Positions 12,320 to 34,073 of a stretch of 64,000 nucleotides of DNA are shown here, piece by piece (positions within the stretch are counted from its first letter, which is position 1; the number at the start of each line of letters is the position of its first letter). The notes below the pieces were generated by a model. That model made no database searches. It had not been told where the DNA came from and saw nothing but the letters and a program-made list of their open reading frames with translations. Source of the stretch: Fibrobacter sp. Lineage in GTDB: Bacteria > Fibrobacterota > Fibrobacteria > Fibrobacterales > Fibrobacteraceae. The stretch is from positions 186,001-250,000 of the forward strand of contig JAFPWY010000004.1 in assembly GCA_017412605.1 (NCBI GenBank), in the 5' to 3' direction. The translations under genes and the position numbers were made by a program.

Positions 12320-12323
12320 ACAC

Positions 12324-12352
12324 GAATGCCCCCGCCAAAAGCGGGGGCATTC
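12324..12352 (+). terminator. Strong hairpin after rnpB
   Basis: A 12-bp stem GAATGCCCCCGC / GCGGGGGCATTC with a loop of five bases directly follows rnpB. The T-run after it is weak (TCTCCATTAT), so it may act as a terminator or as a 3' end stabiliser. Confidence 0.75.
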
Positions 12353-12372
12353 TCCATTATCTTGAATTTTTT

Positions 12373-13017: not shown

Positions 13018-13026
13018 AGCGCAGGA

Positions 13027-14664: not shown

Positions 14665-14975
14665 AGTAGTAGTCGGGTTTGAGGTTTGTGATCGGGCGCC
14701 AGAGGCACCCTTTGAGGTTAAAGGTTATGAGTTTTGCATAGCTCGTTCCTCTATAAAATTAAAATTTCTCTCCTCGCCCGTCTCTTATCTCCCGTCTGTT
14801 TTTCCCTGACTAGATGGAGCGGTCCCGCCCGACATGGGTGCCTTTTTTGCAAAAAAAGCCGATGAGAGGTCAAAATGGAGCATTTTTTTTACTTTTTTGA
14901 ACTTTTTTAGGCACAACCGCCAATAGAAGTGTTATTTTTTGAGCATAAAAGTTTTTAACCCCAAAGAGGAATATC
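14665..14975. other. Intergenic region without a visible gene
   Basis: About 310 bases between the divergent fumarase and Ala/Pro-rich gene starts. It holds AT-rich runs, a short palindrome of CTTTTTT and AAAAAAG near 14850, and an AGAGGAA ribosome binding site for the gene at 14976. I see no RNA gene or clear promoter. Confidence 0.6.
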
Positions 14976-15563: not shown

Positions 15564-15587
15564 GTTCTTAGAACAACCGATATTCTC

Positions 15588-15617
15588 GGCGCCCAGCGAC
15601 AGCTGGACGCCTTTTTT
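15588..15617 (+). terminator. Intrinsic terminator after the Ala/Pro/Glu-rich gene
   Basis: GGCGCCCAGC and GCTGGACGCC form a 10-bp stem with one mismatch and a GACA loop, followed by TTTTTT. Confidence 0.85.
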
Positions 15618-15730
15618 GTTTGTTGTCGTTTTTTTACAAATTTTGAAATCTGCCCCAAATGCAGCAATTTGCGTTTTTTAAAGCGCAATCGCAATGTTGT
15701 TTTTTGCTCAACGGAAATACGTTGTTTTTT

Positions 15731-15759
15731 TTAACAACAAAAAACGCCCCCTATATAAT
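15731..15759 (+). promoter_or_regulatory. Sigma70-type promoter of the xylanase gene
   Basis: TTAACA at 15731-15736 and a perfect TATAAT at 15754-15759 are 17 bases apart. Transcription would start near 15766, leaving a 5' leader of about 60 bases before the ATG at 15827. Confidence 0.7.
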
Positions 15760-15826: not shown

Positions 15827-17260
15827 ATGGAAAAGTCTATCTCTAAAGCGGTAAAATTCGGTGCGGTTCTCGCATTCGGTCTTGCCGTGAACAACGCATT
15901 TGCCGTGGATGCCTGCAACGAGGATATGGGGCATTCCGGAAACGGATCCAACGTGAGCGGAAACCAAGTCGGTTCCATTAATGGCACGCCTTGGGGCTTC
16001 GAACAGTGGTACCAGGGCGGCAATGCAACCATGACCTACTACAGCAACGGCACGTTCAAGGCCAACTGGAGCGGTTCCAGCGACTACCTGACCCGCGTGG
16101 GCTACCAATACAATGGAAACGGAATAGACCACAAGACAAAACACTTTACGGTCGACTACAAGTACACCAAGACCGGCAACGCCCAGTACGGCTACATCGG
16201 CGTGTACGGCTGGACCAAGAACCCCGAGACGGAATACTACGTCGTAGACGACTGGTTTAGCAAGCCGAACGAACAGTACATTGGTGAAAAGTTCGGCGAA
16301 ATCACCGTGGATGGCGCAAAATACACAATCCACGCATTCCTCCGCCAGCAGGAACCCTCCAAGTCCGGCACTTCCACATTCGTACAGTTCTTCAGCGTGC
16401 GCGAAACCCCGCGCCAGTGCGGACACATCGACATTTCTGCCCACTTCAAGAAGTGGGATGAACTCTTCACCGGTCAGAACCAGCAACTCCGTGGTTCCAA
16501 GGGCGGTGGATCCGCTCAGCTCAAGTTCGGTAACGTGACCGAAGTGATGCTCATGACCGAAGCCGGTGGCAATGCTTCGGGCTCCGTGGACTACACCTAC
16601 TTCAACATGAGCGACAACGGCGAAGCTAGCCCGGTTGGCGGCGGCGAATCCGCACAGAGCAGCACAAGCGGCGACGCCGGTGCCGGTCAGGGTGCTGGCC
16701 AGGGCGCAGGTCAGGGTGCTGGCCAGAGCATGGGCGGCTTTGACATGGGCAACTTTGACTGGAGTTCCTTCGGTCAGGGCGGCGGTCAAGGCGCCGGCCA
16801 GGGCGGCGGCCAAGGCGGTTTCAACTTTGGCGACTTTGACTGGAGTTCCTTCGGTCAGGGCGGCAACGGCGGCTTTAACTTTGGCGGTGACCAAGGTGCC
16901 GGCCAAGGCGGTGGCAACTCCGACTTCAGCAACTTTGACTGGGGTGGAACCGGCGACAACACCGGAACCGACAACGGCAACACCAACCAGGGCACAACCA
17001 CTCCGGATCCGGTAGCCGTAAATCCGACAATTACCCCTGTCGACAATGGCGGAGCCTTCGCGGCACTCCCCACCGACATCAAGGCGGTCAACGCAGCCAA
17101 GACATACCAAGTCTTCAATGCGACCGGACGTTACTTGGGCACACTCGAAGTCTCCTCCGGCTCGACACTCAGCGACGCCATCTTTGCCAAGTTCGGTAAG
17201 GTAGGCATCTACATGGTCAAGAGCGGCTCCAAGACGAAGTCCGTCAAGGTCACACACTAA
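15827..17260 (+). CDS. Secreted endo-1,4-beta-xylanase, GH11, with Gly-rich linker and C-terminal module
   Basis: Cleaves internal bonds of xylan outside the cell. Residues 1-26 form a signal peptide (ending NNAFA). The GH11 domain covers about residues 28-265; the nucleophile is E136 in PETEYYVVDDW and the acid/base is E245 in LMTEAGGNASGS. Residues about 275-385 form a linker of GAGQ and GGGQ units with repeated NFDWSSFGQGG blocks. The last 70 residues (TYQVFNATGRYLGTLEV... KVGIYMVKSGSKTKSVKVTH) resemble C-terminal sorting or anchoring modules found on many secreted proteins of Fibrobacter and Bacteroidetes. SD GAGGAGG lies 6 bases before ATG. Promoter and palindrome upstream; terminator at 17291. 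Confidence 0.93.
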   Translation: MEKSISKAVKFGAVLAFGLAVNNAFAVDACNEDMGHSGNGSNVSGNQVGSINGTPWGFEQWYQGGNATMTYYSNGTFKANWSGSSDYLTRVGYQYNGNGIDHKTKHFTVDYKYTKTGNAQYGYIGVYGWTKNPETEYYVVDDWFSKPNEQYIGEKFGEITVDGAKYTIHAFLRQQEPSKSGTSTFVQFFSVRETPRQCGHIDISAHFKKWDELFTGQNQQLRGSKGGGSAQLKFGNVTEVMLMTEAGGNASGSVDYTYFNMSDNGEASPVGGGESAQSSTSGDAGAGQGAGQGAGQGAGQSMGGFDMGNFDWSSFGQGGGQGAGQGGGQGGFNFGDFDWSSFGQGGNGGFNFGGDQGAGQGGGNSDFSNFDWGGTGDNTGTDNGNTNQGTTTPDPVAVNPTITPVDNGGAFAALPTDIKAVNAAKTYQVFNATGRYLGTLEVSSGSTLSDAIFAKFGKVGIYMVKSGSKTKSVKVTH

Positions 17261-17797: not shown

Positions 17798-18979
17798 CTA
17801 GTACGCTACGTAGCAGAGCACCTGCATAGAAGCCTTCACCGTAAGTTTCGTACCGGCAGCAGAGCCATCCTTACAAGCTGCAGGCGTAATATTTTCAGAA
17901 TAGTTAATCGTATATTCCTTACCATCGATTTCGAGAATAATGCCATTACCCTCGGCACTGCAGATCAGCTGGCAGTTAACCGCATTGGACGGATACTGCG
18001 CCACCAGCGTTTGACCCGACGTGAACGCCTTAGATTCATCGGCCTTCGAGTGAGCAATCACCACATCCACCTGATCCGGGTCGACAACGGACACCGACTC
18101 GCAGGTATACTCCTGGACGGTCTTGTCGCTGTTGGTCACCGAGACTATGGCATTCACGGTTTTCTTGTGCATTTCTCCCGTTGCAACCATCGTTGCAGAC
18201 GTTCCGCTGCCAGAGACCTCGGCATCGTTCGATTTCCAGGAGTACCCTGTAATTTCCGCCTCGGATTCCGCTTCGACAGTCCAAGAAATCGTCTCGCCCG
18301 CATTGACGGAATTCTTAGCCGCCTTGCAAGACGTGACCGTAATGGGAATGCCCTGCACGCGGAGCGGGTCACACTCGACATCGTTACCATCAACTTTCAA
18401 CGTAGCCTTATAGATACCGGAAGTTTCGTAGGTCTTGTTCACCTTGTCCAAGCCGTTGCCCTTCAGGACCTTGCCATCATCAAACGTCCAGACAAACGGG
18501 GCCATGATTTGATCAAACACGTCGCCAGCAGAACGGAAGAAAGCCCAAGTGGCCATCCCCCCCTTTTCAATTTCTGCAGTCGTCGGAGCACAGGACCCTT
18601 TAACGACCTTGTTCGCTTCGGCAAGTTCTTCCTCGGAACTCACAGTTTCTGTCACAGGCTCAGTCACCGGCTGCCACTCGGCAGTCGATGCCGATTTAGG
18701 AGTAGGCTTGCTGTCGTCGCCCGACGGAGATGTTGAAGATTTTCCGTCCCCAGGTTTCTTGTCATCCGCTTTACCCGAGTCAGGATCGGTCGTATTACCG
18801 CCCTCTCCCTCTTCCGAAGAAGACGAACCATATAGGTTCTGGCCATCCTCAAGGCTCACGATCGAATCACCGGCATCTTCCGATCCCGATGACGAATCCG
18901 AGCTGCAACTAGAAAAACAGAGCGCAAGCGCAGAAGCACCCGCCAAAACAGGAACAAAAAAATTATTCAAACGAAGCAT
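17798..18979 (-). CDS. Lipoprotein with PKD/Ig-like repeats
   Basis: A lipoprotein signal peptide ends in the lipobox CFSSC (Cys near residue 25). Residues about 26-110 form a Ser/Gly/Asp/Glu/Lys-rich linker, as in many Fibrobacter surface lipoproteins. Two PKD-like domains follow, about residues 130-205 (MATWAFFRSAGDVFDQIMAPFVWTFDDGKVLKG... YETSGIYKATLKV) and 210-300 (GYSWKSNDAEVSGSGTSATMV), then a strand-rich domain with Cys pairs. PKD domains usually mediate binding at the cell surface; no catalytic motif is visible. It is divergent from the first GH9 gene, with 132 bases between the starts, so the two may share regulatory DNA. Confidence 0.8.
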   Translation of the reverse strand: MLRLNNFFVPVLAGASALALCFSSCSSDSSSGSEDAGDSIVSLEDGQNLYGSSSSEEGEGGNTTDPDSGKADDKKPGDGKSSTSPSGDDSKPTPKSASTAEWQPVTEPVTETVSSEEELAEANKVVKGSCAPTTAEIEKGGMATWAFFRSAGDVFDQIMAPFVWTFDDGKVLKGNGLDKVNKTYETSGIYKATLKVDGNDVECDPLRVQGIPITVTSCKAAKNSVNAGETISWTVEAESEAEITGYSWKSNDAEVSGSGTSATMVATGEMHKKTVNAIVSVTNSDKTVQEYTCESVSVVDPDQVDVVIAHSKADESKAFTSGQTLVAQYPSNAVNCQLICSAEGNGIILEIDGKEYTINYSENITPAACKDGSAAGTKLTVKASMQVLCYVAY

Positions 18980-19111: not shown

Positions 19112-22100
19112 ATGCCGTTTTTTATTGTTCTCTTTTTTGCACTTGCGGTAAACCTTATCGCAGCAGAACAGGAGCAGCCCACCCCCTACGATCTTATCAG
19201 GCCCATGTGGCCGATGAAATGGGACACGGCCGCCACTGACGATGGCGGAACCGTAGAAAGTTTCAGCAAGTACGTGCCGAACAAAAAAAAGCATAACGTA
19301 GTCCCCCCTGTCGGATCCGTCCCCCAGGACTTCGTCGCGAACGGGTTCATCCCCGATACGCTGAACCAGGCCTTCCGTGACGCCCAGAACCTCCGCATCG
19401 GCCGTATCCGCGTGAACCAGGCCGGCTACCTCCCCGACGATCCCGAGATGCAGTTCTACTACGTCTCCAACGGTTCCTGCTCCGAGACATTCTCTATTGT
19501 CGACCTCGAAGGCAACGAAGTGGCCACCGGCGGAACATTCACGTCCTCCGGACTCAAGACGTCTGCACACTGGGAAATCAAGGCCGGCACGGACGCCGCG
19601 ACCGCCAACCAGGGCCGCTACGAAACCACGGCCGACGCCCCCTCCGGAACCGTATGTATTGGTAACATCGTCCAGCTGGCAGGCAGCCTTTCGCTGGAGA
19701 CCCGCTACCGCATCAAGGTTTTAAAGCAGCTTTCCTCCACGTTCATCATCAGCCCGCGTGTCTACTCCATGGTGCGCGACGCACTCCTCAAATTCTACGG
19801 CATCAACCGCAGCGGCAACTCGGAATCGTGGTTCCATAAGCCGAGCCATACCAAGGACGGTGCAGGCCCGGTGGTGAACGACATCGGCGGAGCCGTGGCC
19901 GGTACAGTCTCCTTCAAGGAAGGCGACCTGCAGGGCGGCTGGTACGACTGCGGTGACCACCTCAAGGAATCTTACACGCAGGCCTACGCATTCATGGTGC
20001 TTGCCGTGGTCGCTGGCGGCAACCCGGACCGCGACGACGACCACTACGCCTACAACCAGGGCGAAACGATCAACACGGACGGTATCCCCGACATCTTGCG
20101 CGAAGCCAAGCACGGGGCGGACTTCTTCCTGAGAGCTTACCGCGCCGCCAATGGCGTCGTCGACAACATGGCGGTATCTATCGGAAACTTCGGCGCCGAC
20201 CACAGCTGGTGGGGCCGTCCCGAAAACCAGGACGCACTCCCGGCCACGCTCGCCCGTCGCGGTGGCCCGCACGAACGCGATGTGCGCCTGGGCGAACTCA
20301 ACGCGAACGTCTCGAGCGAAATCGCCGCAGGTCTTGCCATCTTGGGCCGCGAATACGCCACCTACGACAAGGCGTTCGCCGACTCCTGCAAGATGGTCGC
20401 CACGCAGATCTATGAATTCGCCAAGGACTTAGCCCTGGGCCGCAAGACTTACGGCAACAACAAGTACAAAGGCGACTGGGGAACCCCGGCCTATAGCGGC
20501 AGTAACTCCTACCTCGACGACATCAGCGTCGCGGCCATCGCCCTCCACTTCGGCACCTATCCGGATTCCGGTATGAAGTACTTGAACGACGCCGTCGAAG
20601 ACAAGACCATCGGCGTGGAACAGGAACCCGGCGTGGGATTCTTCCGCGGCGGTTGGTTCGCCGGCTCCCGCGACGGTATGCGCAAGTCCAGCAACACGGA
20701 CTGGGCCAACGTCCAGACTTACGCCCTTTACGCATTCTACAAGCTCCTGCTCAGGGACGACGCCACCGCCGAAAGCTTTGGCATCAGCAAGGAAGACCGT
20801 CTGTGGTACGCCGAAAACGTCGCCTTCATGCTGGCCAACAACGTCGCCGCAAGGTCTGGCGAAGGCTCTACCTCCATCACCATTCCGCACCCGAGCAATG
20901 GCTCGGCAACCGTTTCGGCAAGCGATCTGTGGTACCAGATGCAGTACCAGATGGCCTGGATTTACAACCGCTACCAGGCAGGCAACATCTTTGACGTGTT
21001 CGCCTATGCCGACGTGACCAAGGACCTCGAAGGCATCCGCCTGCCGCAGAAGGGCGTACAGAACTGGAACTCAGCCAAGATGAAGCAGCTCGGTATCAAC
21101 CAGCTCAACTACCTCTTCGGCGTGAACCCGTGGGACATTTCCTTCCTGATTGGCGTGGGCGACAAGAGCGACAACCACCCGCACCACCGCGGCGCCAACC
21201 CCGAAGGCAAGAACATGCCCGGCGCAGGCTACAAGTACAACCCGCCCACCGGCGCCATCTTTGGCGGTGTTCCGCCCGAGGGCACCAACGAATGGATTCC
21301 GAGCACGCTCAGTTGGGAAGACTACTTCAAGTCCGAAACCTGTATCGACGGTACGGCAATGTTCCTCGCCGCAGCGACAACGGCCATCAAGGAAGAGGAC
21401 CGCAACCGTGCTCCCTCCAAGATCAATGTGGAAATCCGCTACGTCGGTTTCGATTCAGCCATCGTGAAGATTTCGCAGGATGTCCGCGGCCCGGCAATGA
21501 TCCTGTACAGCACCAACGAGACCGGCCCCTTCAGCACCGCCGTCAAGGATTCCGTCCCCGGAGTCTCGCATGACATCCACATGACCGGCCTCCAGAACGG
21601 AACAACGTACTACTTCAAGGTCATCGCCATCAACGCCCGCAGCGAGGCCTACACGACCAAGTGGCTCGTCGACAGCACCAGCACCCCGTTCTCTTTCACC
21701 ACCCTGGCTAGCCAGCCGGGTCCGGCCGATATCCAGAACGTAAAGGTCTGCAACCTCTCCGCCGACAGCGCCGAAATCATGTGGTACACCCCGAACGGCC
21801 AGTACGAATCCAAGATGTACTGGGATACCGTCCAGACCACTTACGACAAGATGCAGTGGAATACCGGCGACGGCAACGCCGACGTATCGGGCATTCCCAC
21901 GAACTTCCACTACGTAAAGATTGGCGGGCTCGAAGAAAAGACGACCTACTACTACTGCGTTGAAAGCAATGGAGTCCGCAGATGCAATAACGACAAGAAC
22001 CAGCCGCTCAAATTCACGACTCCGGTACGCCGCTACAACTTCGATGTCAGCGTGTACCAGTATGAGTTCACCGGCTTGGACTTCTTGAACTTGAATCTTA

Positions 22101-25100
22101 TCAACAACGAAGACAAGCCCTTCAGCGACCTGACACTGCGCTTCTACGTTACCGCAAGGCCCGAAGAAATCGAAGCCACGCCGGGCGTGAACAACCAGCC
22201 GGGTACCTGCCCGCTGCTCGTTGATGAAGATATCTGCCAAGCTTACGACGAAGCGGGTTTCAACAGGCCCTGCGTCAACAAGAACGGCGAAAGCGTCGAT
22301 GACTCCCTGCGTTACTACCTGAGACATGCAGTCCCCGTCAAGCTCGAAGACACCTACGACGCCGCGACAGGGACATACGACTGGTACATTCCTATCCCGC
22401 TTGGCGGCACCACGATCAAGTCGTCTTCGCGCATGCGTATCGACATCGGTGTCTCGTCGGGTATCTACCAGAACGGAATATGCGAAACGCTCCGTACCCC
22501 GGCCAAGAAGCGCCTTTCCGCGACTTCCGGGGACTGGTCCTGGTCGCCGCACACGCGTGACGAAGACGGCGCGGACTACGACGGCGTTCCGGTCTGGGAC
22601 AAGGACCAGGGCGATATCGAGCAGGCTCCGGTCAACCCCTACATCGTTGTCTACCGCAAGGACGAGTTCATCTCCGGTTTCAGCCCGTCTTACCAGGAAA
22701 TGGTGACGAAAAAGGCTGACTACAAGATGACGGTCGCCTACGATCCTCCGTTCAACGTGTCCAACGGTTCTTACATCAAGATTGACTCGACCAAGAGCAC
22801 GATGCATGTTTACGGAACGGCGCTCATCACCGAAAGCGGTTATGTGACCGACATTTGGGTAAACGGTGTGGCGCTTACCCCTGAGCAGTTGAAGAATGCG
22901 GCCATATATAACTACGAAACGGGCAAGTATGACCTCGACATTCCGGTGAAATTGACCATCGGCACGAACAAGGTCGACATCACCGTGTTCGCCGGCCCGA
23001 ACCCGGAATGCTCGGAATGCCAGGAAAATGGCGGCTGCGCATTCAACAACCGTACATATTTTGTGCAATTCAGCAAGGGTGACCGCACTGCCGGCAAGAT
23101 CCAGCTTCTCCGTGACAACGGCAGCACCGTCAGCAGCCCTGTGGTCGACAATCCGATGAAGTTCAAGATCTTCGTGAGCGACAAGGATAATGCGAAGAAT
23201 TCCACTGTAAGCGTCACGTTGCGGAACTCCCGTACCAACGAGACGTCGACTGTCACCCTGAAGAGGACCAACGATGCTCTCGGTTACTTCGAAAGCGACT
23301 GGCTCACCGCAATCAGGGTTGAAGACGCCAGCCTACCCGAAGTTGCTCTGTTGGGTGGTGACACGGTCACTGCAATCTACATTGACGCCGAAGACGAAGA
23401 AGATTCCACGTCTCAGTACTTCTACGCCAAGCCGACGACCCCGATCCCGCAGCTTGCGAAGCTGGTAGACACCGACTGCAATTCCGCAGCCGACGTCATA
23501 GAGATGACCTTTACCGGAAGCAAGTTCGACAACAGCAAGGTCAAGCTGGACAGCGTCGCTATCATCCTCAACGAAGACAGTTCAAAAGTTCATATAGCAA
23601 GGCCTTCTGGCTCTATCACTGGAGATGAAGTCCAGTTAACACTAGAAAGCGACTTCCCAGCAATTGCAGCTCCCAGCGGAAAGGTGCAAATCTACATGAC
23701 GGAATCGGGCTCGGCCAAGTTGGCAGAGATCCAGATTACCGACGGAATTGCCCCGACACTTATGGGCGTGACCATTTTGGAAAACGAGAACCACATGTAT
23801 CCGCAGGACACGCTCAAGGTCGTGTTCTCCGAACCGGTCAACCTGCCCTCCAAGACCACATGGCCGTTCCGCATCACGAATGGTGCTGCAGACATTTCAC
23901 AAGAAACAATTGTTGTTCGCTCGGCCACCTCAACAGACAACGGCAAAAGCTGGCAATATGTCATCGAGGGTAATACCGACGGCAAAATTGTCAAGCAGAG
24001 CTTTAAGGCAGAAATTGCTGCCAGTTTCACTGTTACCGACATAGTCGGCAACACCCTTTCCACCTGTAACGGACCTGTCACCATCACGGAATCGGTCCGT
24101 CCGGTGCCGGCACGCTATGCGGCAATCATCGACTCGACCGGAGACGGTCAGCCCGACGAAATCTACATTGAATTCACCAAGCTTCTCCGCGAAAAAGACA
24201 TGTTCGACACCATCGACGTCTACTGGGGCAACCCGGACATCTACAAGGTCTTCGGAAAGCCGCAGAACGGCTGGGCTCTGGACACCCTCCTAGGAGATGT
24301 TGTCGACAAGATATCGTACGTCGTCGACTCGTCTAACGGAACCTGGTCCACCAAGGAAAGGACCTCCTGCGAAACGGTCAATGTTCCGGATACAATCTAC
24401 ACCACTGTCGAAGACGTCGACTCCACAACCGGCGAAATAACGAAACGCAAAGTTGTCCAGTCAGTCGGCTTGAAAACAGTGGAAGATCCTACAACGTGCA
24501 AGACTACGATTGACTCCACGTTCATCCCGGCAACGACCGAAGTCGTCGAGAAGGTTCAGAACCAGTACTCTATCATCCGCATCCCCATACCCGAAGGCAC
24601 ATACAAAAACGTGACCTACGGCAGCAGGGCGGGTAGCGGCCTGATTCTGCCGAGGCAAGGCCCGAGGGGTGGATTCTTTGACGACAATACGGCACCTCTT
24701 TCCGACAAGTGTCCTCCAGTTATTTTGAAGGCTTCTTGGAGGGGAATCGACTTGCACGATGCCGGACAGACAGACTTGCTGACGCTGACTATGTCCGAGC
24801 CTCTAGACTCCGTGCCGGAAAAGACCATCCTTATCGAAAGAATGCGCGACGACAAGTCCGGAGTCTTTATAGAGAAGGGTCATCTTGATCGAATCGAGAA
24901 CTCCATAACCAATTCGACAATGATTACCTACTACTATAATGACGATGACAAACTGACGACTACCGTTCACATCGGTGACTACGTAAGACTCGTTTCCAAT
25001 GCGGAAACAAGTTACTACAAGGATGCTGCAGGCCAGTTTGCCGGAGAGGAAACCCCCTGGGTTCCGGTGGTAGGCGTCGTTAGCAACGTCAAGATCAAGG

Positions 25101-25690
25101 TGTCGATGCCCGAGCACCTCGTTACAGGTAAAAAAGAAATGGCTTACAACGGCGCTGCCCTGACCAAGGACCAGGCGTTTAGGCTTTCGATCAAGAACAA
25201 GAGCGACGACGAGATTGTCATCGCCGAAGGCAACGACAAACTCCATCCGGTCTCGGCTCCTCCCGTGAGCAACTACATCCACGGCGGTCCCGTGTTCCAG
25301 ATCGACCTGACATTGCCGCAAGTCCTCGAAAATACCATTTCCGGGGAAGCAAAACGCGCTTACAAGCTTAATTTGGAATTTGACATATTCACAAATCTCG
25401 GTTCTTTTGTAAACAAAGTAACATACAGCATGGACATCAACCAAGTGAAGCAATACATCAGCGCCAACAGCACTATAAGCCTGTACTTGGAATGGTGTTC
25501 TATCGAAGGGGCACCAATCAGCGAAAAGAGCAAGAAGATCGGCACCGGCGCATACATCGCACGCTACGACATCTCGGCGAAGAGCGAGTATGTAGCAAAG
25601 GAGCCGGACAGCGGAGACAAGACCGAGACCAAGAAGAAGAATACGGACGGAACCATTTCGTTCGGCTTCCGCCGGCCTCCGAAAAAGTAA
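19112..25690 (+). CDS. Giant secreted family 9 glycoside hydrolase (endoglucanase-type), multidomain
   Basis: GH9 enzymes cut beta-1,4-glucan chains. The protein (2192 residues) has a signal peptide (1-18), a CelD-type Ig-like domain starting with IRVNQAGYL (residues about 99-200), and a GH9 catalytic domain to about 770 with all key residues: D279 and D282 in YDCGDH, DGIPDILREAKHG, NPWDISF at 672-678 and proton donor E742 in KSETCIDG. FN3-like domains follow (about 775-970), then several large strand-rich regions with repeated acidic motifs of the type DSTGDGQPDEIYIEF and DTDCNSAADVIEMTF. The C-terminus has the segment IGTGAYIARYDISAKSEY that is also found in the next gene. SD AAGGAGG precedes the ATG. 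The second GH9 gene follows after a terminator; they are paralogues. Confidence 0.93.
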   Translation: MPFFIVLFFALAVNLIAAEQEQPTPYDLIRPMWPMKWDTAATDDGGTVESFSKYVPNKKKHNVVPPVGSVPQDFVANGFIPDTLNQAFRDAQNLRIGRIRVNQAGYLPDDPEMQFYYVSNGSCSETFSIVDLEGNEVATGGTFTSSGLKTSAHWEIKAGTDAATANQGRYETTADAPSGTVCIGNIVQLAGSLSLETRYRIKVLKQLSSTFIISPRVYSMVRDALLKFYGINRSGNSESWFHKPSHTKDGAGPVVNDIGGAVAGTVSFKEGDLQGGWYDCGDHLKESYTQAYAFMVLAVVAGGNPDRDDDHYAYNQGETINTDGIPDILREAKHGADFFLRAYRAANGVVDNMAVSIGNFGADHSWWGRPENQDALPATLARRGGPHERDVRLGELNANVSSEIAAGLAILGREYATYDKAFADSCKMVATQIYEFAKDLALGRKTYGNNKYKGDWGTPAYSGSNSYLDDISVAAIALHFGTYPDSGMKYLNDAVEDKTIGVEQEPGVGFFRGGWFAGSRDGMRKSSNTDWANVQTYALYAFYKLLLRDDATAESFGISKEDRLWYAENVAFMLANNVAARSGEGSTSITIPHPSNGSATVSASDLWYQMQYQMAWIYNRYQAGNIFDVFAYADVTKDLEGIRLPQKGVQNWNSAKMKQLGINQLNYLFGVNPWDISFLIGVGDKSDNHPHHRGANPEGKNMPGAGYKYNPPTGAIFGGVPPEGTNEWIPSTLSWEDYFKSETCIDGTAMFLAAATTAIKEEDRNRAPSKINVEIRYVGFDSAIVKISQDVRGPAMILYSTNETGPFSTAVKDSVPGVSHDIHMTGLQNGTTYYFKVIAINARSEAYTTKWLVDSTSTPFSFTTLASQPGPADIQNVKVCNLSADSAEIMWYTPNGQYESKMYWDTVQTTYDKMQWNTGDGNADVSGIPTNFHYVKIGGLEEKTTYYYCVESNGVRRCNNDKNQPLKFTTPVRRYNFDVSVYQYEFTGLDFLNLNLINNEDKPFSDLTLRFYVTARPEEIEATPGVNNQPGTCPLLVDEDICQAYDEAGFNRPCVNKNGESVDDSLRYYLRHAVPVKLEDTYDAATGTYDWYIPIPLGGTTIKSSSRMRIDIGVSSGIYQNGICETLRTPAKKRLSATSGDWSWSPHTRDEDGADYDGVPVWDKDQGDIEQAPVNPYIVVYRKDEFISGFSPSYQEMVTKKADYKMTVAYDPPFNVSNGSYIKIDSTKSTMHVYGTALITESGYVTDIWVNGVALTPEQLKNAAIYNYETGKYDLDIPVKLTIGTNKVDITVFAGPNPECSECQENGGCAFNNRTYFVQFSKGDRTAGKIQLLRDNGSTVSSPVVDNPMKFKIFVSDKDNAKNSTVSVTLRNSRTNETSTVTLKRTNDALGYFESDWLTAIRVEDASLPEVALLGGDTVTAIYIDAEDEEDSTSQYFYAKPTTPIPQLAKLVDTDCNSAADVIEMTFTGSKFDNSKVKLDSVAIILNEDSSKVHIARPSGSITGDEVQLTLESDFPAIAAPSGKVQIYMTESGSAKLAEIQITDGIAPTLMGVTILENENHMYPQDTLKVVFSEPVNLPSKTTWPFRITNGAADISQETIVVRSATSTDNGKSWQYVIEGNTDGKIVKQSFKAEIAASFTVTDIVGNTLSTCNGPVTITESVRPVPARYAAIIDSTGDGQPDEIYIEFTKLLREKDMFDTIDVYWGNPDIYKVFGKPQNGWALDTLLGDVVDKISYVVDSSNGTWSTKERTSCETVNVPDTIYTTVEDVDSTTGEITKRKVVQSVGLKTVEDPTTCKTTIDSTFIPATTEVVEKVQNQYSIIRIPIPEGTYKNVTYGSRAGSGLILPRQGPRGGFFDDNTAPLSDKCPPVILKASWRGIDLHDAGQTDLLTLTMSEPLDSVPEKTILIERMRDDKSGVFIEKGHLDRIENSITNSTMITYYYNDDDKLTTTVHIGDYVRLVSNAETSYYKDAAGQFAGEETPWVPVVGVVSNVKIKVSMPEHLVTGKKEMAYNGAALTKDQAFRLSIKNKSDDEIVIAEGNDKLHPVSAPPVSNYIHGGPVFQIDLTLPQVLENTISGEAKRAYKLNLEFDIFTNLGSFVNKVTYSMDINQVKQYISANSTISLYLEWCSIEGAPISEKSKKIGTGAYIARYDISAKSEYVAKEPDSGDKTETKKKNTDGTISFGFRRPPKK

Positions 25691-25715
25691 GCATTACGCA
25701 AGTTTTTTAAAGCAA

Positions 25716-25750
25716 GGCAGTGAGTCCAGACGGATTCGCTGCCTTTTTTT
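25716..25750 (+). terminator. Intrinsic terminator between the two GH9 genes
   Basis: A 12-bp stem, GGCAGTGAGTCC / GGATTCGCTGCC with two G-U type pairs, loop AGAC, then TTTTTTT. The two GH9 genes are thus probably separate transcription units. Confidence 0.85.
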
Positions 25751-25853
25751 ACAACAAAAACCCGACATTTTTGCGTGATTGGAAAAACGGAGATTCAACA
25801 GAGGGTTTCAGATTGAGCCAATTTAAAGTATATTTCCTACTAGTACTCTAAAA

Positions 25854-28800
25854 ATGTTCGCTATGAAAAAACTTTTATTTTTTGCCATTTTTATCGGCGC
25901 ATTCTGTTCCGAGGTTTTCGGAGCTGTTGGCGCCCTCCCCGTCATTGACCGTACCTGCACCACCTGCGAACGGCGCTACCTAGACTCACTGAACGTCTAC
26001 AACAGGCGTCCCATCCGCGTCAACCAGGCCGGGTTCAGGCCGCAGGACTACAAATATGCCTATGTGGCCGATATTCCCGTCGGGACAAAATTCTCCGTCA
26101 TCGATGCAAACAGCGGTAAAGAAGAATTCAGCGGAGTCACCACGAATATCGGACAGGCAATCAAGCCGAACATCTGGATTAACGGTGCATTCAACTCCAT
26201 CGCCAGCGTTTACGAATTCGGTTCGCAGGATTCCATAAGCAACAAGACCGAGCTTCTTACACGCGCAGACTTTACCCAGCTTAACAAGCAAGGCGAATAC
26301 TTTATCGTCATCAAATCGGACACGTCAGCAACGTTCCACATCCATCCGTCCATCTATAACGCCATTCTCGAAAACGCGCTCCAATTTTTTGGTGTGCAGC
26401 GCTGTGGTGACACGAAATCGCATTTCCACGGTCCATGTCACCTCAAGGACGGCTCCGCCATCGGGCACGACCTCTCTGGCGGCTGGCACGACTGCGGCGA
26501 CCATTTCAAGGTTTCCGAAACACTCGGCTACACAGCCTACGTGCTCTCAATGGTCTACTTGGTTTACGAGGACAAAGCCGAAGACCGTTATGGCGAATCC
26601 TATGACGACACCGTACATATCGACGGCATCCCCGACATTCTCTACGAAGCAAAAATCGGCACAGACTACCTGCTCAAGCTCTACAAAGCATCGAAAGCCG
26701 ACGGCCTGATCGACAAGGGCGACATGTACCATTCCGTGGGTGTTGATGACGCCGACCACCAATACTGGGATTTGCCGGAACGCCAAGACGCCCAGTCAGC
26801 GAGCAAGGGCGGTCCGGACCGCGTTGTCGCCAAGGGAATCGGTACCAACACGGCGGGCGTCTTCGCCGCCGCCATGGCCAACGTCGCCAAGGGCTTCGAA
26901 ATCCTGAAGCCGGATTACCACGACGAACTTTTGGAAGCCGCAAAGGACATCTACGCCAAAATCATCGCCCCCAGCTTCTTGAACGGCAACGGCTGCTCCG
27001 TGGGAGGAGGCCAAAGCACGGACGGACTCAAGGGATTCTATCCCGGCGCAGGCGTCTGCTTTGACGACGCCGCTGCGGCGGCACTTGCCCTGTGGTATGC
27101 AACCGGCGACTCCAAATACGCCGACGACCTATTCAGGGACACCAAAATCAACAACAACTCTAACGCAATCCACAACCTGGAATACTTCAAGGCCGGCTAC
27201 CTCGGCAACGGCTACGGTTTCCATCCCGGTGGATGGGCTACCGACTACGAGAACGTTCACGCCTACGTGCTGTTCGCGCTGCAGAAATTGATTCTCGGAA
27301 AAGAAGATGTCGCCCGTTCCCTCGGCTTGTCCGACATCGAAAGAGACTCGCTCTCCATGCGCGTCATGGCGTCCTTCCGCAAGCTCATCAACGACAGCAC
27401 CAACGATGGCGATTCCCTTGTGCTGACAAACCCGGGAATCCAGGGCGAGCCTCATGAAGGCGATACCAAACTTCACGTGATTACCCCCTACAACCTCGTC
27501 TGGACGTCTTTTGACTGGGGTGTCATCCGCTACAACCTCGGTACGGCAAACGCAATATTCCTGATGTACGAGCTGACCGGTGACGAACGCTACCTCCGCG
27601 TGGCCCTCGACAACATGTACTATGCACTGGGCGCAAACCCCTGGGACATCTCGTTCCTGCTCGGCGCTGGCGACAAGAACCCCCAGCATCCGCATAACCG
27701 CGCCGCAAACCCGGACGGATACAATGCCGGCGGCATGCCCTACGAATACAAGTGCCCGAAGGGAGCGCTTATGGGCGGCAGGGCACCTAACCTCACCCTG
27801 ATTGAGGACTGGTCCAAGTATACCTCCACAGAAACCTGCGTCGACTTCTCGGCCCAGTTCCTGTTCCCGGCACAGAGCCTCGCGAACACGCTGCCCCCCG
27901 ACAACGAAGGTCCCCTGTTCAGCAACATCATGGGCACCCCGATTTCGGAAACGGAAGCCATCATCAGCTGGAACACCAACGAAGTCGCGCTGGTCACCGT
28001 TTTCTACAACACACAGCCCAACGAATCTAACCTCAATGTCGCACAGCAGGTCGAGCCGAGCAAGGACGGCAGTCTAACCCTCACCGGGCTCACCCCCAAC
28101 ACGACCTACTACTTCTACCTGGAAGGCGTAGACACAAAGAGAAACATCTCTAAGGACAACAACCACGGGCAATGGTACAGTTTCACCATGACCCTTGAAC
28201 CCATCGAGATAAGCGGTGTGACCATTTGCCAGGTAGACCACCGCAGCGCCAAGATTTACTGGTGGAGCAGCAGCCGCGCCAACGGCATCGTCAACTACGG
28301 GACGACATCCAAGTCCCCGACCGAAAGCCAGACCGCCTCCGGCGGCGCCGTGCTCTTCCACGAGGCCGAACTCACCGGACTAAGTCCCGGAACCACCTAC
28401 TACTTCACCGTATCCTCGGGTGCCACAAAATCCAGCGAATACTCGTTTACCACGGAAAAGTTCGCTTCAACCGTGGATATGGACATCTATGTAAAGCCCC
28501 TGAGCAAGAACGGCTGCACGAGCAGTTCCGACTGGAAGCAGTGCAACACGTTCCTCGTCATAGTGACCAACAGGGACACGATGGCCTACCAGGACCTCGA
28601 CCTGAGATTCTATTTCCCGGTCGCAGTCACCGGCGCTAGCGACAACAGGTCCGTCTGGGACGGAACCGGACAGTCTGTCGGCTGGCCCAACATGGTATTC
28701 GACGCCCCTGTCGCCTATACGGCCGTCACGAACAAGGGCACCACGGAAAGCGGTTACTACACGCAGGTCCACATCGAAGGAAACCTCGCCGTTTCCGGTA

Positions 28801-31691
28801 GTTACTTCTTCGAATTCAGAATAAGCCCGTCCTATGGAAGTATTGAAGACAGCTGGTCGTTCAGGCCCCATACCGATGCAGACGATCCTGCACAGTTCAA
28901 GGGTATCGACCTGACCCGCGGCCCCCAGTACAAGGAAGAATCCAATTCCACGATGTACATCGAGAAGGTCAACGGAAAGAACGAGCTCGCATTCACGAAG
29001 ACCCCGTACGTTACCGCCTATTACCACGGCAAGTACATTTACGGCTATGGTCCCGACTACACGCCAGAGAACGGACCGCAGATGAAGAGAAACGTCAAGC
29101 TCGCCTTCGACCAGCCCTTCGTCTCGCCCCTTTACTCCATCGAAAAGGACGACCCGCTCACGACATACTCGGCAACAGCCCGAGTCTCGCCCACCGGCCT
29201 CCTCGATGACGTCGAAAAGAACGGAAGTTCCATCAGCATCGTGCCTGTCGTGCCGGGCAGGACCGACGCCGTCTCGTTCCAGATCGACACGACACTCGCC
29301 TACGGCAACAACTATATTGAATGGGTCGCCTGGCACAATCACTTTGCTAACATGAAGACCGAAAACAAGTACGACTGCGCCTGCGATGTGGTGAGGAGCA
29401 ATGTCGAAATCGACACCATCACCGAGCCCCCCGAGCAGCGCTACCTGGAATTCACGGTCGACACAATCAACGTCTATACGACCCGCTTCGCCGAGGTTCA
29501 CCTGATTCTCAAGGACAGCCTCAAGCAGCAAATGACTTCCGAGAACCTGGCCGTCATGTTAACGTCTGACAACTCGCTGGTACAGTTCTTCACAAGCCCG
29601 ACAGCGACCCTCCCGACAACGACCATCAACATCGTGAACGGAGAAGCCGTATTCTACGTGAAGGCCGATTCCGCCCTGACAGCCCCCATTTACGCCATAG
29701 CCAACTCTACCAAGATTATCGCCTACGAAACAGCCAAGGCCATCCTGGTCGTTGAAGACCTGCCTCCCTGGCCCATCATCACCCTAGCGAGGATGATTGA
29801 CCAGAACTGCGACAATGTCCCCGACGCCATAGACATCACGCTGTCGAACGCCTACATGGACAACACGAAATTCTCCATGATCCGTTTCACCTACGGCAAC
29901 GATACATTAACCTCAGACAAAGTTGAAAGTCTTGACGGAACAAACCTCGTCGTCAAAATCGACCTCAGGGATACCACCGCCAACACGTCGCCAAGCGGCA
30001 GCATCACGCTGGTCAGTACTGTCGAAGGAAGTCCCAAGGAATCCAACGACTTCTACCGCGACGGCATCTCGCCAACGCTTCTATCCGTATCGGTTCTGGA
30101 ACGTCTCGACACAGCAACAGCAGACCGCGTGTACCTGCAATTCAGCGAACCCGTCGCCATGGCCGGACTGGAATGGCCGATACAGCTCTACAACGGCAAC
30201 AGCCCGGTAGCAACACCTGTCACCGTGACCAACGCGCAAATCTACAACGACTCCCTGAACGTTTGGGAACTCACCGTAGCCTTCGCGCAGGACGGTTCTT
30301 CCATCGTCAAGGAAGGCATGGGTGGACAGCTCCTGCTCTCCAGCGCTCTCACAGACCGTGCAGGCAATGGAGTAGGAACATGCCAGCAGCCCATCCATAC
30401 CATCACGCTCAAGATTCTCCCCGTCCAGATGACATACGCCTTCATCAGCGACAAGGATGAAGATGGTCTTGCCGAACATGTGGAAGTCACCTTCATTTCG
30501 CGAGTGGACGATCGCCACAAGCCCGATAGCATTTCCATTGAATTCGGTAGCGCAACACCGGAAACCCTCTGGACCTCCAGCTACACCTTCAGTGACGACC
30601 GCAAGACCGCCATACTCAACCTGAAGGAGCCGTTCCGCCTGGGCAACACCAACGGCAATTACTCCGGCCAAATCAACGGCAAGGAACTGATTGGAGCCGG
30701 TCTCGTCATGCAGCACCTCGGTGCAGGCGCCGCCTACGAAACGAACAAGGTTATCGCCGAAGACAAGGCAGGCCCTGTATTCACGTCAGCAATCATCAAG
30801 TCTACATCTGATTTTGAAGATCTCAGCATCTTCGCCAGCGAGCCGTTGCTTGTCACGGATTCTACATACAAACTGTACCTACGCGAACGAGGCGATGCAA
30901 GCATCTACTCCCACGACCTGCAAAAGTGGATTTTCACCAGACAAAACACTGCACTTGATGTATTCTTCAAGAGCGAATCGGAAAAGGCCGTCGTGGAAGG
31001 CGACCGCATACGTTTCGCTCCGCAGGATGCTGGAGCCTTCATGGACAAGAGCGGCAACAGGCCGGCAACCAACAATCCTTGGGTCACGGTCAACGGCGAC
31101 GGCAAGCCCAAAGTCAAATACAACGTCGACCTGCAGAGCCCGGTCATCACCGTCGATCCCAAGAAGGTTTCGCCGCCGATACCTGGCAATTCCGACTTCC
31201 GTGTCTACATCTACAACCCGGTCACGCACAAGCTGGACGCCATTCAAGACGGCAAGGTCGTTGCCTCTATCGATACGAACGTCACGCCGTTGCAGGGCGC
31301 CATCTGGACCATCGACATAACCATCCCGCGCGGAGCCGCCTTTGACGAGCATCCGGCCTGGGACACGATGTCCGTCAAGTACAGGATTCCGATCTTCACC
31401 AACCTCGGAGGATTCGTGAATCTCATCAGCGACAGCTACGAGCTTACGCCGGACGTGTACCTCACCTCCGAAAACCAGGTCACGCTCTTCATAGAATGGG
31501 CAACACTCGACGGAAAGGGACTTCGCTCCAAGAACGGGCGAATCGCTGGTACCGGAGCCTACATCTACAAGCTTGAGCTCGAGACCCGCTTTACGCCCAA
31601 TCCGAACCTGGACGAGGAGACTCAAAAGAGATTCAAGTACAAGAGTTCGTACGATAAGACCAAGAAATTCGGCTTAAAGCGCATTCAATAA
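25854..31691 (+). CDS. Giant secreted family 9 glycoside hydrolase, paralogue of the upstream gene
   Basis: 1945 residues, with the same plan as its neighbour: signal peptide (about 1-24), a CelD-type Ig-like domain beginning IRVNQAGFRPQDYK near residue 55, then a GH9 catalytic domain with D213 and D216 in HDCGDH, DGIPDILYEAKIG, NPWDISF at 595-601 and proton donor E660 in TSTETCVD. FN3-like domains (about 690-870), a strand-rich region and acidic repeats (DQNCDNVPDAIDITL, DKDEDGLAEHVEVTF) follow. The C-terminal segment ...RIAGTGAYIYKLELETRF matches the neighbour's. A TATATT at 25829-25834 may be the -10 box. ATG 25854 or ATG 25863 could start translation; neither has a good ribosome binding site. 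It is a diverged duplicate rather than a recent copy. Confidence 0.92.
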   Translation: MFAMKKLLFFAIFIGAFCSEVFGAVGALPVIDRTCTTCERRYLDSLNVYNRRPIRVNQAGFRPQDYKYAYVADIPVGTKFSVIDANSGKEEFSGVTTNIGQAIKPNIWINGAFNSIASVYEFGSQDSISNKTELLTRADFTQLNKQGEYFIVIKSDTSATFHIHPSIYNAILENALQFFGVQRCGDTKSHFHGPCHLKDGSAIGHDLSGGWHDCGDHFKVSETLGYTAYVLSMVYLVYEDKAEDRYGESYDDTVHIDGIPDILYEAKIGTDYLLKLYKASKADGLIDKGDMYHSVGVDDADHQYWDLPERQDAQSASKGGPDRVVAKGIGTNTAGVFAAAMANVAKGFEILKPDYHDELLEAAKDIYAKIIAPSFLNGNGCSVGGGQSTDGLKGFYPGAGVCFDDAAAAALALWYATGDSKYADDLFRDTKINNNSNAIHNLEYFKAGYLGNGYGFHPGGWATDYENVHAYVLFALQKLILGKEDVARSLGLSDIERDSLSMRVMASFRKLINDSTNDGDSLVLTNPGIQGEPHEGDTKLHVITPYNLVWTSFDWGVIRYNLGTANAIFLMYELTGDERYLRVALDNMYYALGANPWDISFLLGAGDKNPQHPHNRAANPDGYNAGGMPYEYKCPKGALMGGRAPNLTLIEDWSKYTSTETCVDFSAQFLFPAQSLANTLPPDNEGPLFSNIMGTPISETEAIISWNTNEVALVTVFYNTQPNESNLNVAQQVEPSKDGSLTLTGLTPNTTYYFYLEGVDTKRNISKDNNHGQWYSFTMTLEPIEISGVTICQVDHRSAKIYWWSSSRANGIVNYGTTSKSPTESQTASGGAVLFHEAELTGLSPGTTYYFTVSSGATKSSEYSFTTEKFASTVDMDIYVKPLSKNGCTSSSDWKQCNTFLVIVTNRDTMAYQDLDLRFYFPVAVTGASDNRSVWDGTGQSVGWPNMVFDAPVAYTAVTNKGTTESGYYTQVHIEGNLAVSGSYFFEFRISPSYGSIEDSWSFRPHTDADDPAQFKGIDLTRGPQYKEESNSTMYIEKVNGKNELAFTKTPYVTAYYHGKYIYGYGPDYTPENGPQMKRNVKLAFDQPFVSPLYSIEKDDPLTTYSATARVSPTGLLDDVEKNGSSISIVPVVPGRTDAVSFQIDTTLAYGNNYIEWVAWHNHFANMKTENKYDCACDVVRSNVEIDTITEPPEQRYLEFTVDTINVYTTRFAEVHLILKDSLKQQMTSENLAVMLTSDNSLVQFFTSPTATLPTTTINIVNGEAVFYVKADSALTAPIYAIANSTKIIAYETAKAILVVEDLPPWPIITLARMIDQNCDNVPDAIDITLSNAYMDNTKFSMIRFTYGNDTLTSDKVESLDGTNLVVKIDLRDTTANTSPSGSITLVSTVEGSPKESNDFYRDGISPTLLSVSVLERLDTATADRVYLQFSEPVAMAGLEWPIQLYNGNSPVATPVTVTNAQIYNDSLNVWELTVAFAQDGSSIVKEGMGGQLLLSSALTDRAGNGVGTCQQPIHTITLKILPVQMTYAFISDKDEDGLAEHVEVTFISRVDDRHKPDSISIEFGSATPETLWTSSYTFSDDRKTAILNLKEPFRLGNTNGNYSGQINGKELIGAGLVMQHLGAGAAYETNKVIAEDKAGPVFTSAIIKSTSDFEDLSIFASEPLLVTDSTYKLYLRERGDASIYSHDLQKWIFTRQNTALDVFFKSESEKAVVEGDRIRFAPQDAGAFMDKSGNRPATNNPWVTVNGDGKPKVKYNVDLQSPVITVDPKKVSPPIPGNSDFRVYIYNPVTHKLDAIQDGKVVASIDTNVTPLQGAIWTIDITIPRGAAFDEHPAWDTMSVKYRIPIFTNLGGFVNLISDSYELTPDVYLTSENQVTLFIEWATLDGKGLRSKNGRIAGTGAYIYKLELETRFTPNPNLDEETQKRFKYKSSYDKTKKFGLKRIQ

Positions 31692-31760: not shown

Positions 31761-34073
31761 ATGCACGAGGCTTTGTACTCCCATTCGCCATACATCATAG
31801 CGCTGTCTGCCATAGCGCTAGTGGTTTCGCTTTTCCTGAAAAAAATGCTGTGGAGGGAAACCAGCGCGAAAAAGTTGCCCTCGCCAATCTTGAAATTCAT
31901 CCACATCAATATCGTGTGGAATTTCTGTGCGCTCGTCGGATCACTTTTCTTTTGGCAGCAACAGACATCGACGATTAAAATCATCCTATTTAGCATCCAA
32001 GCACTGGCCTGGGTCCAAGCAGGAACTACGATATACAGAATTGGCAAGCTCGATACAGACCACGCAGACTCCAATCCCTCCAAGATATGGAACACTATCG
32101 CCATCTGCGCCGTTCTACTCGTTTCCATCTTCGCCATTTTTGACATCCGCATAATCACCGAAATCAGCATTATGGGATTGTATCCTCTAAAGAACTATCC
32201 CCTCGCCATCATTTTCTCGTCATACTTCATCATTTTCGTAGTCCCTCTCATCATTGCAACAATGTACCAGCTATTCAAGAGGTGCATGCAGTCCAGCAAT
32301 TCCAACATGGTGAAGGTCAACACGAAAATTCTCACGAGCTTCATCATCATATTCCTCATCGCCTATTCCTTCGATTTCATCCTGCCCATTATCCAGACAA
32401 CATCATTCAAGCCAGACAAGATGCATTTCCTTTTCTGGAACCAATGTTGTAGCATTATTATTGCCATTCTCGCCATCCAGTATTTCACGTCTATTTCGTA
32501 CAAGAACAAAAGCTCCTATTGGCTACTGAGCAGAATCGTCAACCAGATTAACGACGGCATCATCATCTACCATTCCGACGGACGAATCAAGGCCGCAAAT
32601 CCGACGGCACTCCAGATGTTCCAGACAACCATTGACGAGTTGCAGACGAAATATATCCAGGAAATTTTTTCAAAGAACATCGAGTTCTTCCGTGAATCCC
32701 ATTACAAGAGTCAAAAGATTTCTATCAAGAACGAGATTCACAAGTTCGACATAAAGATATACCAAAGCCATATCAGTATGCTTACCAGTGAGTTCATGAT
32801 TCAGTTCAGTGACCTCACCAACACGCTTTACTACCAGCAGCGCATCAAGGACCTGAACGAGCAGTACGTGGAATACAAGCAGGACCTCATCCGCTACCAG
32901 GACCGACTCAATATTTCTGAAAAGCGCTCCGACGAAAACAAGAATTTCCTGTTCACCTTGATTAACGCGCTTCCTTTCCAGTTCTGGTCCAAGAACGAAC
33001 AGGGTGTCTACGTGATGCAGAACCAGAAAGATATTGCAAACCGCGGGAACAAGTCATCCTCGTTCGACAATCCTGAACAAATTACGGACTACGAGAATGA
33101 AGCCCGCATGAGCGGCGTCTCGAAATCGTTCATATCGTACGAGACCGTAAGCGGAAGAATTATCACCCAAGACGAGGCGAACGTTCTCTTCCGCGAAGGC
33201 AAAGATGTTTTCATATTCGACAACCTGTTCATCCCCATCGTCACGGACACAAGTCCATACAAGGTCATCGGCCTGAAAATCGACATGACAGAGCAGCGCA
33301 AACTGGAAAAGGAACGTGACATGCTGCGCGAACAGAAATACATCCATTCCCGCCTCGAGGAACTGGGCACGTTGTGCGGCGCTTTTGCGCACGACTACAA
33401 CAACATCCTCGGATCGCAGATTGGATTCTGCGACCTCGCGAAGGAATCCATCGCCGAAGACCATCCGGCCTACATGTTTATCTGCGAAGCGCGCAAGGCT
33501 GCAGAACGCGGCAAGCAGTCCCTCGAAGAACTGCTGAGCACCATCCGCGGCAACACCTCCGCAGCCATTCCACCTATAGAATTCTCACCGCACATCATCA
33601 TCAAGGATGTCGTCCTGAGATTCACGCAAAGCCTCCCGAACGGAGTGCGCATCGTCTCCACCGAAATCGACGAAGACATCAAGATCATGGGTGTCGTCGC
33701 CTCCTTCGAGCGCGTCATCACAAACATCGTCAAGAACGGTATCGACGCCATGAAATCCTCAGGTGGACAGCTCACCATCAAGATGCATTCCGAGACGCTG
33801 GAAGAAACGCTGGATGTGCCCTATGCGGCCCCCATCCCTGCAGGTTCCTATGCCAAGATCAGCATCTCGGACACGGGAACCGGAATGGACGCCGGGACGC
33901 TGGAACGCATATTCTCGCCATTTTTTACAACAAAAGCCCCCGGCGAAGGCCTCGGACTGGGGCTGTCTTCTGCCGTCCGGCTGCTAAAAGAAGCAAAAGC
34001 AGCCTTCAACGTACAAACTACGCTAGGCAAAGGCACCACATTTAATCTATATTGGCCTAAAAGGAATGAATAA
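31761..34073 (+). CDS. Membrane-bound sensor histidine kinase with PAS domain
   Basis: The N-terminus has seven hydrophobic segments over residues about 10-255, a 7TM-type sensor module, then a PAS-like domain (ILSRIVNQINDGIIIYHSDGRIKAANPTALQMF), a second PAS-like region after residue 400, and a kinase core. The phospho-accepting His is H544 in AFAHDYNNILG; the N box is NIVKNGIDAM, and the G boxes are DTGTGM and GEGLGLGL. This kind of H-box (FAHDxNN) is typical of kinases paired with NtrC-type activators. The downstream receiver begins 10 bases after its stop, then the sigma54 activator, so the three genes look like one signalling operon. It lies directly after the GH9 pair; a role in controlling them is only suggested by position. 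Confidence 0.92.
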   Translation: MHEALYSHSPYIIALSAIALVVSLFLKKMLWRETSAKKLPSPILKFIHINIVWNFCALVGSLFFWQQQTSTIKIILFSIQALAWVQAGTTIYRIGKLDTDHADSNPSKIWNTIAICAVLLVSIFAIFDIRIITEISIMGLYPLKNYPLAIIFSSYFIIFVVPLIIATMYQLFKRCMQSSNSNMVKVNTKILTSFIIIFLIAYSFDFILPIIQTTSFKPDKMHFLFWNQCCSIIIAILAIQYFTSISYKNKSSYWLLSRIVNQINDGIIIYHSDGRIKAANPTALQMFQTTIDELQTKYIQEIFSKNIEFFRESHYKSQKISIKNEIHKFDIKIYQSHISMLTSEFMIQFSDLTNTLYYQQRIKDLNEQYVEYKQDLIRYQDRLNISEKRSDENKNFLFTLINALPFQFWSKNEQGVYVMQNQKDIANRGNKSSSFDNPEQITDYENEARMSGVSKSFISYETVSGRIITQDEANVLFREGKDVFIFDNLFIPIVTDTSPYKVIGLKIDMTEQRKLEKERDMLREQKYIHSRLEELGTLCGAFAHDYNNILGSQIGFCDLAKESIAEDHPAYMFICEARKAAERGKQSLEELLSTIRGNTSAAIPPIEFSPHIIIKDVVLRFTQSLPNGVRIVSTEIDEDIKIMGVVASFERVITNIVKNGIDAMKSSGGQLTIKMHSETLEETLDVPYAAPIPAGSYAKISISDTGTGMDAGTLERIFSPFFTTKAPGEGLGLGLSSAVRLLKEAKAAFNVQTTLGKGTTFNLYWPKRNE

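Follow-up and report, generated by a model that had tools for sequence, protein, structure and literature searches.

A divergent C-terminal domain, probably a type IX secretion signal, on two giant GH9 proteins and on adhesin-like proteins of Fibrobacter

Fibrobacter is a leading degrader of cellulose in the rumen, and how its cellulases are placed at the cell surface is an open question. In a 64,000-nucleotide stretch of a Fibrobacter sp. genome (G000:C3:186001-250000; the window), two giant GH9 proteins end in one kind of C-terminal region and a GH11 xylanase ends in another. An earlier note on this DNA had read the two tails as two ways of sorting or anchoring secreted hydrolases in one organism. 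The source genome comprises 3.53 Mb in 15 contigs, and the tails were analyzed in this genome and in a sample of 60 genomes of the phylum.

The genes for the two GH9 proteins are neighbors on the plus strand. In the N-terminal halves of GH9-A (19112..25690; 2192 aa) and GH9-B (25854..31691; 1945 aa) lie CelD_N, GH9, and fn3/PAP-N domains; the GH9 domain spans residues 218-754 and 168-671, respectively. Pfam model PF00759 (GH9) scored over its cut-off of 27.7 in both proteins (194 bits, E 6.7e-57, for GH9-A and 239 bits, E 2.1e-70, for GH9-B). A BLASTP alignment of the two proteins covered the greater part of both (E 2e-112, 25% identity), and their last ~350 residues gave an E-value of 2e-16. 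The N-terminus of GH9-A is hydrophobic and has no basic residues, and that of GH9-B looks like a signal peptide by eye. A pair of tail matches about 6 kb apart, in frames of similar lengths, was present in at least 11 of 20 genomes of the genus, including the source genome, as read from coordinates and frame lengths among the matches listed. Three Fibrobacter MAGs related to the source genome showed 73-85% identity over the query. A PKD-domain, lipoprotein-like gene lies on the opposite strand immediately upstream of GH9-A (17798-18979, minus strand), and a PAS/histidine-kinase gene (31761-34073) and a sigma-54 type response regulator gene (34461-35987) lie downstream of GH9-B.

The C-terminal module common to both proteins, called the GH9 tail here, is about 110 residues long. 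It covers residues 2082-2192 of GH9-A (25355..25687, plus strand) and 1836-1945 of GH9-B (31359..31688, plus strand). As the earlier note had described, each copy contains EW followed by GTGAYI, at 25541-25558 after LEW in GH9-A and at 31548-31565 after IEW in GH9-B. A six-frame search of the whole window with G[ST]G[AVI]Y[IVLF] found no match besides these two. The xylanase (15827..17260, plus strand; 477 aa) does end differently, with YQVFNATGRYLG...GIYMVKSGSKTKSVKVTH at 17105-17257, outside the 19112-31691 region in which the earlier note had placed the comparison. On its profile scores, the xylanase tail (17090..17257, plus strand) is a weak version of the type A sorting domain of the type IX secretion system (T9SS), with 16.1 bits against TIGR04183 (cut-off 23) and 18.8 bits against a profile of type A tails from the source genome. 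Two tail families are therefore present in one organism, and counting only two was too few, since the eight GH9 proteins of the genome have at least three kinds of C-terminus. Two have the GH9 tail, two have a type A end (scoring 35.8 bits in one case and weakly, at 12.6 bits, in the other with the genome's type A profile), two have a short basic end by eye, and in two no tail was seen. The short basic end, of the KDGRRFDLIGNRVR type, belongs to the GH9 enzymes L002 and L003 (G000:C9 and C10).

A search of the source genome with the C-terminus of GH9-B found nine places in nine genes. A profile built from those nine tails (A1) gave 20 matches, which correspond to 18 genes, one fragment at a contig edge, and the second piece of one gene. 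Two of the 18 genes (L146 and L151) were taken without their 5' ends. With this profile, the tail ended 0-11 residues before the stop in all 18 genes, and no internal copy above noise was found in them. In the phylum sample, 51 of the 60 genomes had a GH9-tail match at E 0.01. All 26 genomes of the taxonomic family of the source genome had matches (3-19 each, best E 4.3e-14 or better), as did three of four genomes from a different family within the class (2, 2, and 20 matches). Few and weak matches were found in 22 of the remaining 30 genomes, and these could be other C-terminal domains (CTDs).

According to Pfam, the 18 tail genes encode two GH9 proteins, three cadherin proteins, six proteins with VWA domains and InlB-type repeats, and three PA14 proteins over the cut-off. 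One more has a PA14 match below the cut-off (L150), and three have no Pfam domain (L025, L149, and L146, the last a 5'-truncated fragment). Cadherin, VWA, and PA14 proteins thus make up 12 of the 18 and are mostly giants. The median length was 1582 aa for the 18 tail genes and 625 aa for the 43 type A places over the cut-off, based on open-frame or gene lengths (Mann-Whitney p 2e-6). This comparison includes three type A places (L075, L083, and L087) in which the TIGR04183 match is not a tail because it lies 337-361 residues from the frame end. None of the tail genes overlaps any of the 65 type A places of the genome, as judged by coordinates. Two of the VWA and InlB-repeat giants, each about 2,480 aa with a GH9 tail, are encoded in tandem (L148:713-8167 and 8296-15735; G000:C3:330-346 kb). 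At the other extreme, a 420-aa protein (L149:889-2151; G000:C10) with a hydrophobic N-terminus seemingly consists only of an acidic unit, a stalk, and the tail, and seems to be a natural minimal construct of the tail module. A 756-aa frame (L065, L088, and L153; G000:C13:48545-48805) is an apparent intermediate between types, as its C-terminal end is matched over the cut-off by the type A model and below the cut-off by the models for type B and PorU.

The earlier note had also claimed acidic repeats shared by the GH9 pair. The literal pattern, D-x-D-x-D-G-x-x-D, had no strict match in either protein; what does exist is two degenerate copies in each. GH9-A has DTDCNSAADVIEMTF at residue 1453 (23468..23512, plus strand; 739 residues before the C-terminus) and DSTGDGQPDEIYIEF at residue 1674 (24131..24175, plus strand; 518 residues before). 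GH9-B has DQNCDNVPDAIDITL at residue 1316 (29799..29843, plus strand; 629 residues before the C-terminus) and DKDEDGLAEHVEVTF at residue 1533 (30450..30494, plus strand; 412 residues before). Strict copies sit in other GH9-tail proteins. The strict pattern D.[DN].DG..D was found in 11 of the 18 tail proteins, compared to a mean of 0.15 and a maximum of 2 in 500 rounds of residue shuffling. A wider pattern that covers GH9-A and GH9-B was also found in 11 of 18 (shuffles: mean 0.18, maximum 2). One or the other pattern occurred in 13 of the 18, versus 1 of 57 other window ORFs of at least 200 aa. In 11 of the 13 proteins with an acidic unit, a strict copy lies 356-456 residues ahead of the C-terminus, and a D-x-x-G-N element often comes after the unit. 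The three cadherin proteins, L145, and L150 had neither pattern. The acidic unit may be a calcium-loop-like start of the stalk ahead of the GH9 tail.

To classify the tail, 39 of 53 distinct tails, those scoring at least 20 bits, were aligned (A2) and compared with Pfam and NCBIfam; the weak gene L150 of the source genome is outside the 53. No curated family came near its cut-off with these 39 tails (best E 0.0015). The NCBIfam models that matched most tails were PorU (8 of 39, best E 0.0015) and PorZ (6 of 39, best E 0.0078), followed by two FlgD models with three tails each. Where positions were given, the PorU and PorZ matches were to the C-terminal end of the models. When run against the source genome, the PorU model found the PorU-like gene, one non-tail gene, and seven weak places (E 0.019-0.26), which lie in six tail genes and the tail fragment and are matched by the last ~75 model positions. 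The tails of GH9-A and GH9-B had no match to the type A models TIGR04183 and PF18962 up to E 10, and a type A model matched 1 of the 39 tails (E 0.039). No type C (ChiA) CTD, a recognized class of T9SS signal (PMC10202324), was among the NCBIfam matches of the tails, in a library that may lack a type C model.

Among the conserved positions of the tail, the glycine of LG-x-[FY]-V is present in 34 of 38 rows of alignment A2, the G and Y of G-x-Y in GTGAYI are each present in 39 of 39, and the terminal G-x-x-R has its G in 39 of 39 and its R in 37 of 39. These positions correspond to what has been described for T9SS CTDs: motifs B and D with conserved glycines, D also with GxY, and E with a basic residue (PMC11969387). 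GTGAYI probably corresponds to motif D of an Ig-like T9SS CTD. It would then be a structural part of a known kind of domain, which the earlier note had listed as counting against its two-way reading.

Profile-profile alignment was used to compare the GH9 tail with type A tails of the source genome. The type A profile was built from 27 of 30 loci of the 65 places; three were left out with a match far from the stop. The GH9 tail scored above 100 of 100 column shuffles with sets of 12, 17, 18, 48, and 53 tails, and the alignment superposed the motif landmarks of both families. The hhalign probability was 60% with a 17-tail short-form set, chosen for absence of the long insert and including five distant tails (L120-L124), and 13% without those five. 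It was 14.5% with the tails of the source genome, 9% with 53 tails, and 6% with 48 tails. The value of 60% therefore hangs on the five distant tails, which come from other genomes of the phylum and draw the tail family towards type A. Three of these five (L122-L124) have the best scores with the type A profile among the tails, at 10.8-12.1 bits. Against the PorU CTD of the source genome, hhalign gave the GH9 tail 21-33%. Plain profiles scored this PorU at 4.8 bits (GH9 tail) and 7.0 bits (type A), and thus the GH9 tail is not nearer to PorU than type A is.

Structure models were also examined. An AlphaFold2 model of GH9-B residues 1600-1945, made with eight related sequences, had a mean pLDDT of 67.9 and values of 69-91 in the tail blocks, so the C-terminal domain is predicted with fair to good confidence. 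Foldseek ranked PorU (6za2) first for this model (E 3.3e-4, probability 0.69), with a poor overall superposition (403 columns, rmsd 23, TM 0.17). VIA-align matched the model to PorU residues 1054-1158 with a Z-score of 7.5 (rmsd 3.3, 103 residues, 21% identity). These residues are the PorU CTD (PMC11285876). A Z-score below 8 may reflect merely a common arrangement, and the score of 7.5 was graded as middling; it was equaled by an unrelated Enterococcus WxL-interacting protein. The GH9-A model, which was poor (mean pLDDT 61), failed to repeat the PorU match, as structure searches with it returned no PorU, just generic beta-sandwiches.

One explanation for such data is that the GH9 tail merely caps a long stalk as an Ig-like structural domain and plays no part in sorting, and that the proteins are secreted in some other way, for example by type II secretion. 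Ig-like folds are frequent in such proteins, and the low profile-profile probabilities versus type A agree with this explanation. A tail profile run against sequences of solved structures gave four matches, to FlgD and C5a peptidase, at E 0.66-0.78. The FlgD Ig-like family (PF13860) matched 2 of the 39 tails (best E 0.0069; 14.5 bits for one member against a cut-off of 27). The GH9 tail shares with it the strand pair W-x-x-R-x-x-x-G-x-x-x-x-G-x-Y, but FlgD is a flagellar hook protein and the matches are weak. Sec and type II secretion have also been suggested for F. succinogenes S85 (PMC3079729). However, the tail stands at the extreme C-terminus in 18 of 18 proteins with unrelated cargo, and the positions conserved in it coincide with T9SS motifs B, D, and E. 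We therefore consider a purely structural role rather unlikely, and a T9SS CTD is the preferred reading.

T9SS genes, which the earlier note had proposed to look for, are present in the source genome. It has a SprA gene (1117 bits), a PorU-like protein (319 bits, below the curated cut-off of 420), and PorV-family genes at two places over the cut-off plus four more below it (E 2e-5 or better). Every one of the 60 phylum genomes had SprA, 59 of them over the cut-off, so the co-occurrence of SprA and tail discriminates nothing. Membership of the GH9 tail in type B was rejected. TIGR04131 had no place over the cut-off in the source genome and four weaker matches, none in tail genes, PF13585 matched 1 of 39 tails (E 0.052), and PorP/SprF (TIGR03519), the partner gene of type B, had no match in the genome at E 1.

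A functional resemblance to type B is a separate matter. The GH9 tail could work like the type B (SprB-like) signal, uncut by PorU and held non-covalently by a barrel partner of its own. Tail type would then decide between lasting anchoring and covalent attachment or release. This is a finer form of the T9SS CTD explanation and is compatible with it. The large adhesin-like cargo with its cadherin, VWA, and PA14 domains and its greater median length is like that of type B, and the GH9 tail is longer than type A. The type A tail is cut, and the tails of PorU, PorZ, and type B are kept (PMC11285876; PMC9143113; PMC10202324). Since the commonest weak matches of the GH9 tail are to PorU and PorZ, its retention as an anchor is plausible by analogy, although this resemblance is weak evidence. 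Several PorV-family genes are available as partners, but none of the PorV-family places adjoins a tail gene by coordinates, and the missing PorP/SprF and TIGR04131 matches argue against the analogy as well. Taken together, the type B analogy is possible and somewhat doubtful.

Published data on F. succinogenes S85 provide information on location. Two S85 GH9 genes have consecutive tags, Fisuc_0393/FSU_0809 and Fisuc_0394/FSU_0810 (PMC3079729). They are likely the counterparts of GH9-A and GH9-B, a correspondence inferred rather than aligned. FSU_0809 has 233 kDa and a signal cut at 18-19 (PMC4619616), and GH9-A has 241 kDa and, by eye, a signal of ~18 residues. The S85 cadherin protein FSU_2932 has 318 kDa and an apparently predicted localization entry of outer membrane (PMC4619616); the cadherin protein L022 of the source genome has 318 kDa. 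PMC6851124 likewise assigns FSU_0809 a signal peptide. No signal peptide is given for the pair in PMC3079729 or, as read here, in the table of PMC4668043. In one study, FSU_0809 was detected in the envelope only under cellulose treatments (PMC4619616). In the 2019 proteome, both proteins were in the envelope, FSU_0809 decreased slightly on cellulose (-1.20), and FSU_0810 did not change; FSU_0809 is entered there without a T9SS signal (PMC6851124).

These data also bear on the possibility that the two tails send enzymes to different places. The two tails are distinct sequence families, their cargo differs in size and type, and in Flavobacterium the CTD type sets final localization through the shuttle (PMC12618676). 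For this last reason, the two-destination idea may hold in a finer form. However, Fisuc_0393, Fisuc_0394, Fisuc_1224, and Fisuc_2579 were all found in the extracellular medium of S85 (PMC4668043), and the latter two are, by their FSU names, TIGR04183 proteins in PMC6851124. The names were matched through PMC3079729 and PMC4619616. The envelope proteome holds FSU_0809, FSU_0810, and FSU_1685 together (PMC4619616; PMC6851124). Since both tails have T9SS CTD motifs and likely counterparts of both kinds share fractions in the S85 data available, different destinations are not supported and are quite unlikely. Fisuc_0393 was found in both the outer membrane and the medium, with almost 6-fold more in the medium (PMC4668043), which suits the lasting anchoring of the type B analogy poorly.

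The GH9 tail is probably a divergent T9SS CTD, expanded in Fibrobacter and carried by about 19 proteins of the source genome, most of them giants, and GH9-A and GH9-B are best explained as cellulases built upon an adhesin-like chassis. According to this explanation, the proteins would cross the inner membrane via a Sec signal peptide, judging by eye from the N-termini available for 16 of the 18 tail genes. The folded Ig-like CTD, following a stalk that begins with the acidic, perhaps calcium-binding, unit, would be recognized at the outer membrane. The chain would pass through the SprA translocon, and a PorV-family barrel would collect it as the shuttle. The xylanase would be exported by the ordinary type A form of the same signal, and both tails probably use one translocon. 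To our knowledge, the GH9 tail has not been the subject of secretion, cleavage, or binding experiments, and it was described nowhere among the open-licence literature matches listed, as far as their available text goes.

Among known systems, the PorU and PorZ CTDs of Porphyromonas gingivalis resemble the GH9 tail in motif layout, length (~100 residues), and extreme C-terminal position. They are machine parts, whereas the GH9 tail is on cargo-like proteins, scores far below the PorU and PorZ cut-offs, and has long forms with inserts before and after GTGAYI, unlike PorU and PorZ. Type A tails, which include the Fibrobacter BTD/FPm-1 tails (PMC6851124), share with it the C-terminal position, motifs B, D, and E, and probably an Ig-like fold, but the GH9 tail lacks a type A score, is longer, and has another class of cargo. 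Type B shares with it a long signal on giant adhesins but differs in family match and partner gene.

T9SS has been proposed for Fibrobacter enzymes with type A tails (PMC6851124, 2019). One far-reaching and rather improbable version of the present findings is an extra Fibrobacter class of T9SS signal, with a dedicated PorV-family barrel in place of PorP/SprF and the tail left as an anchor, giving a coat of about 20 giant adhesins with two recruited cellulases. If this were true, the same anchored molecules would do both adhesion and cellulose cutting, and if the anchor were coupled to the T9SS motor like SprB, the cell could drag its cellulases along the fiber. More generally, if Fibrobacter has a second CTD class that is not yet annotated, its likely T9SS cargo would come to include adhesin-like giants, and the genus would offer a natural system for studying how a single translocon copes with different signals when PorP/SprF is absent.
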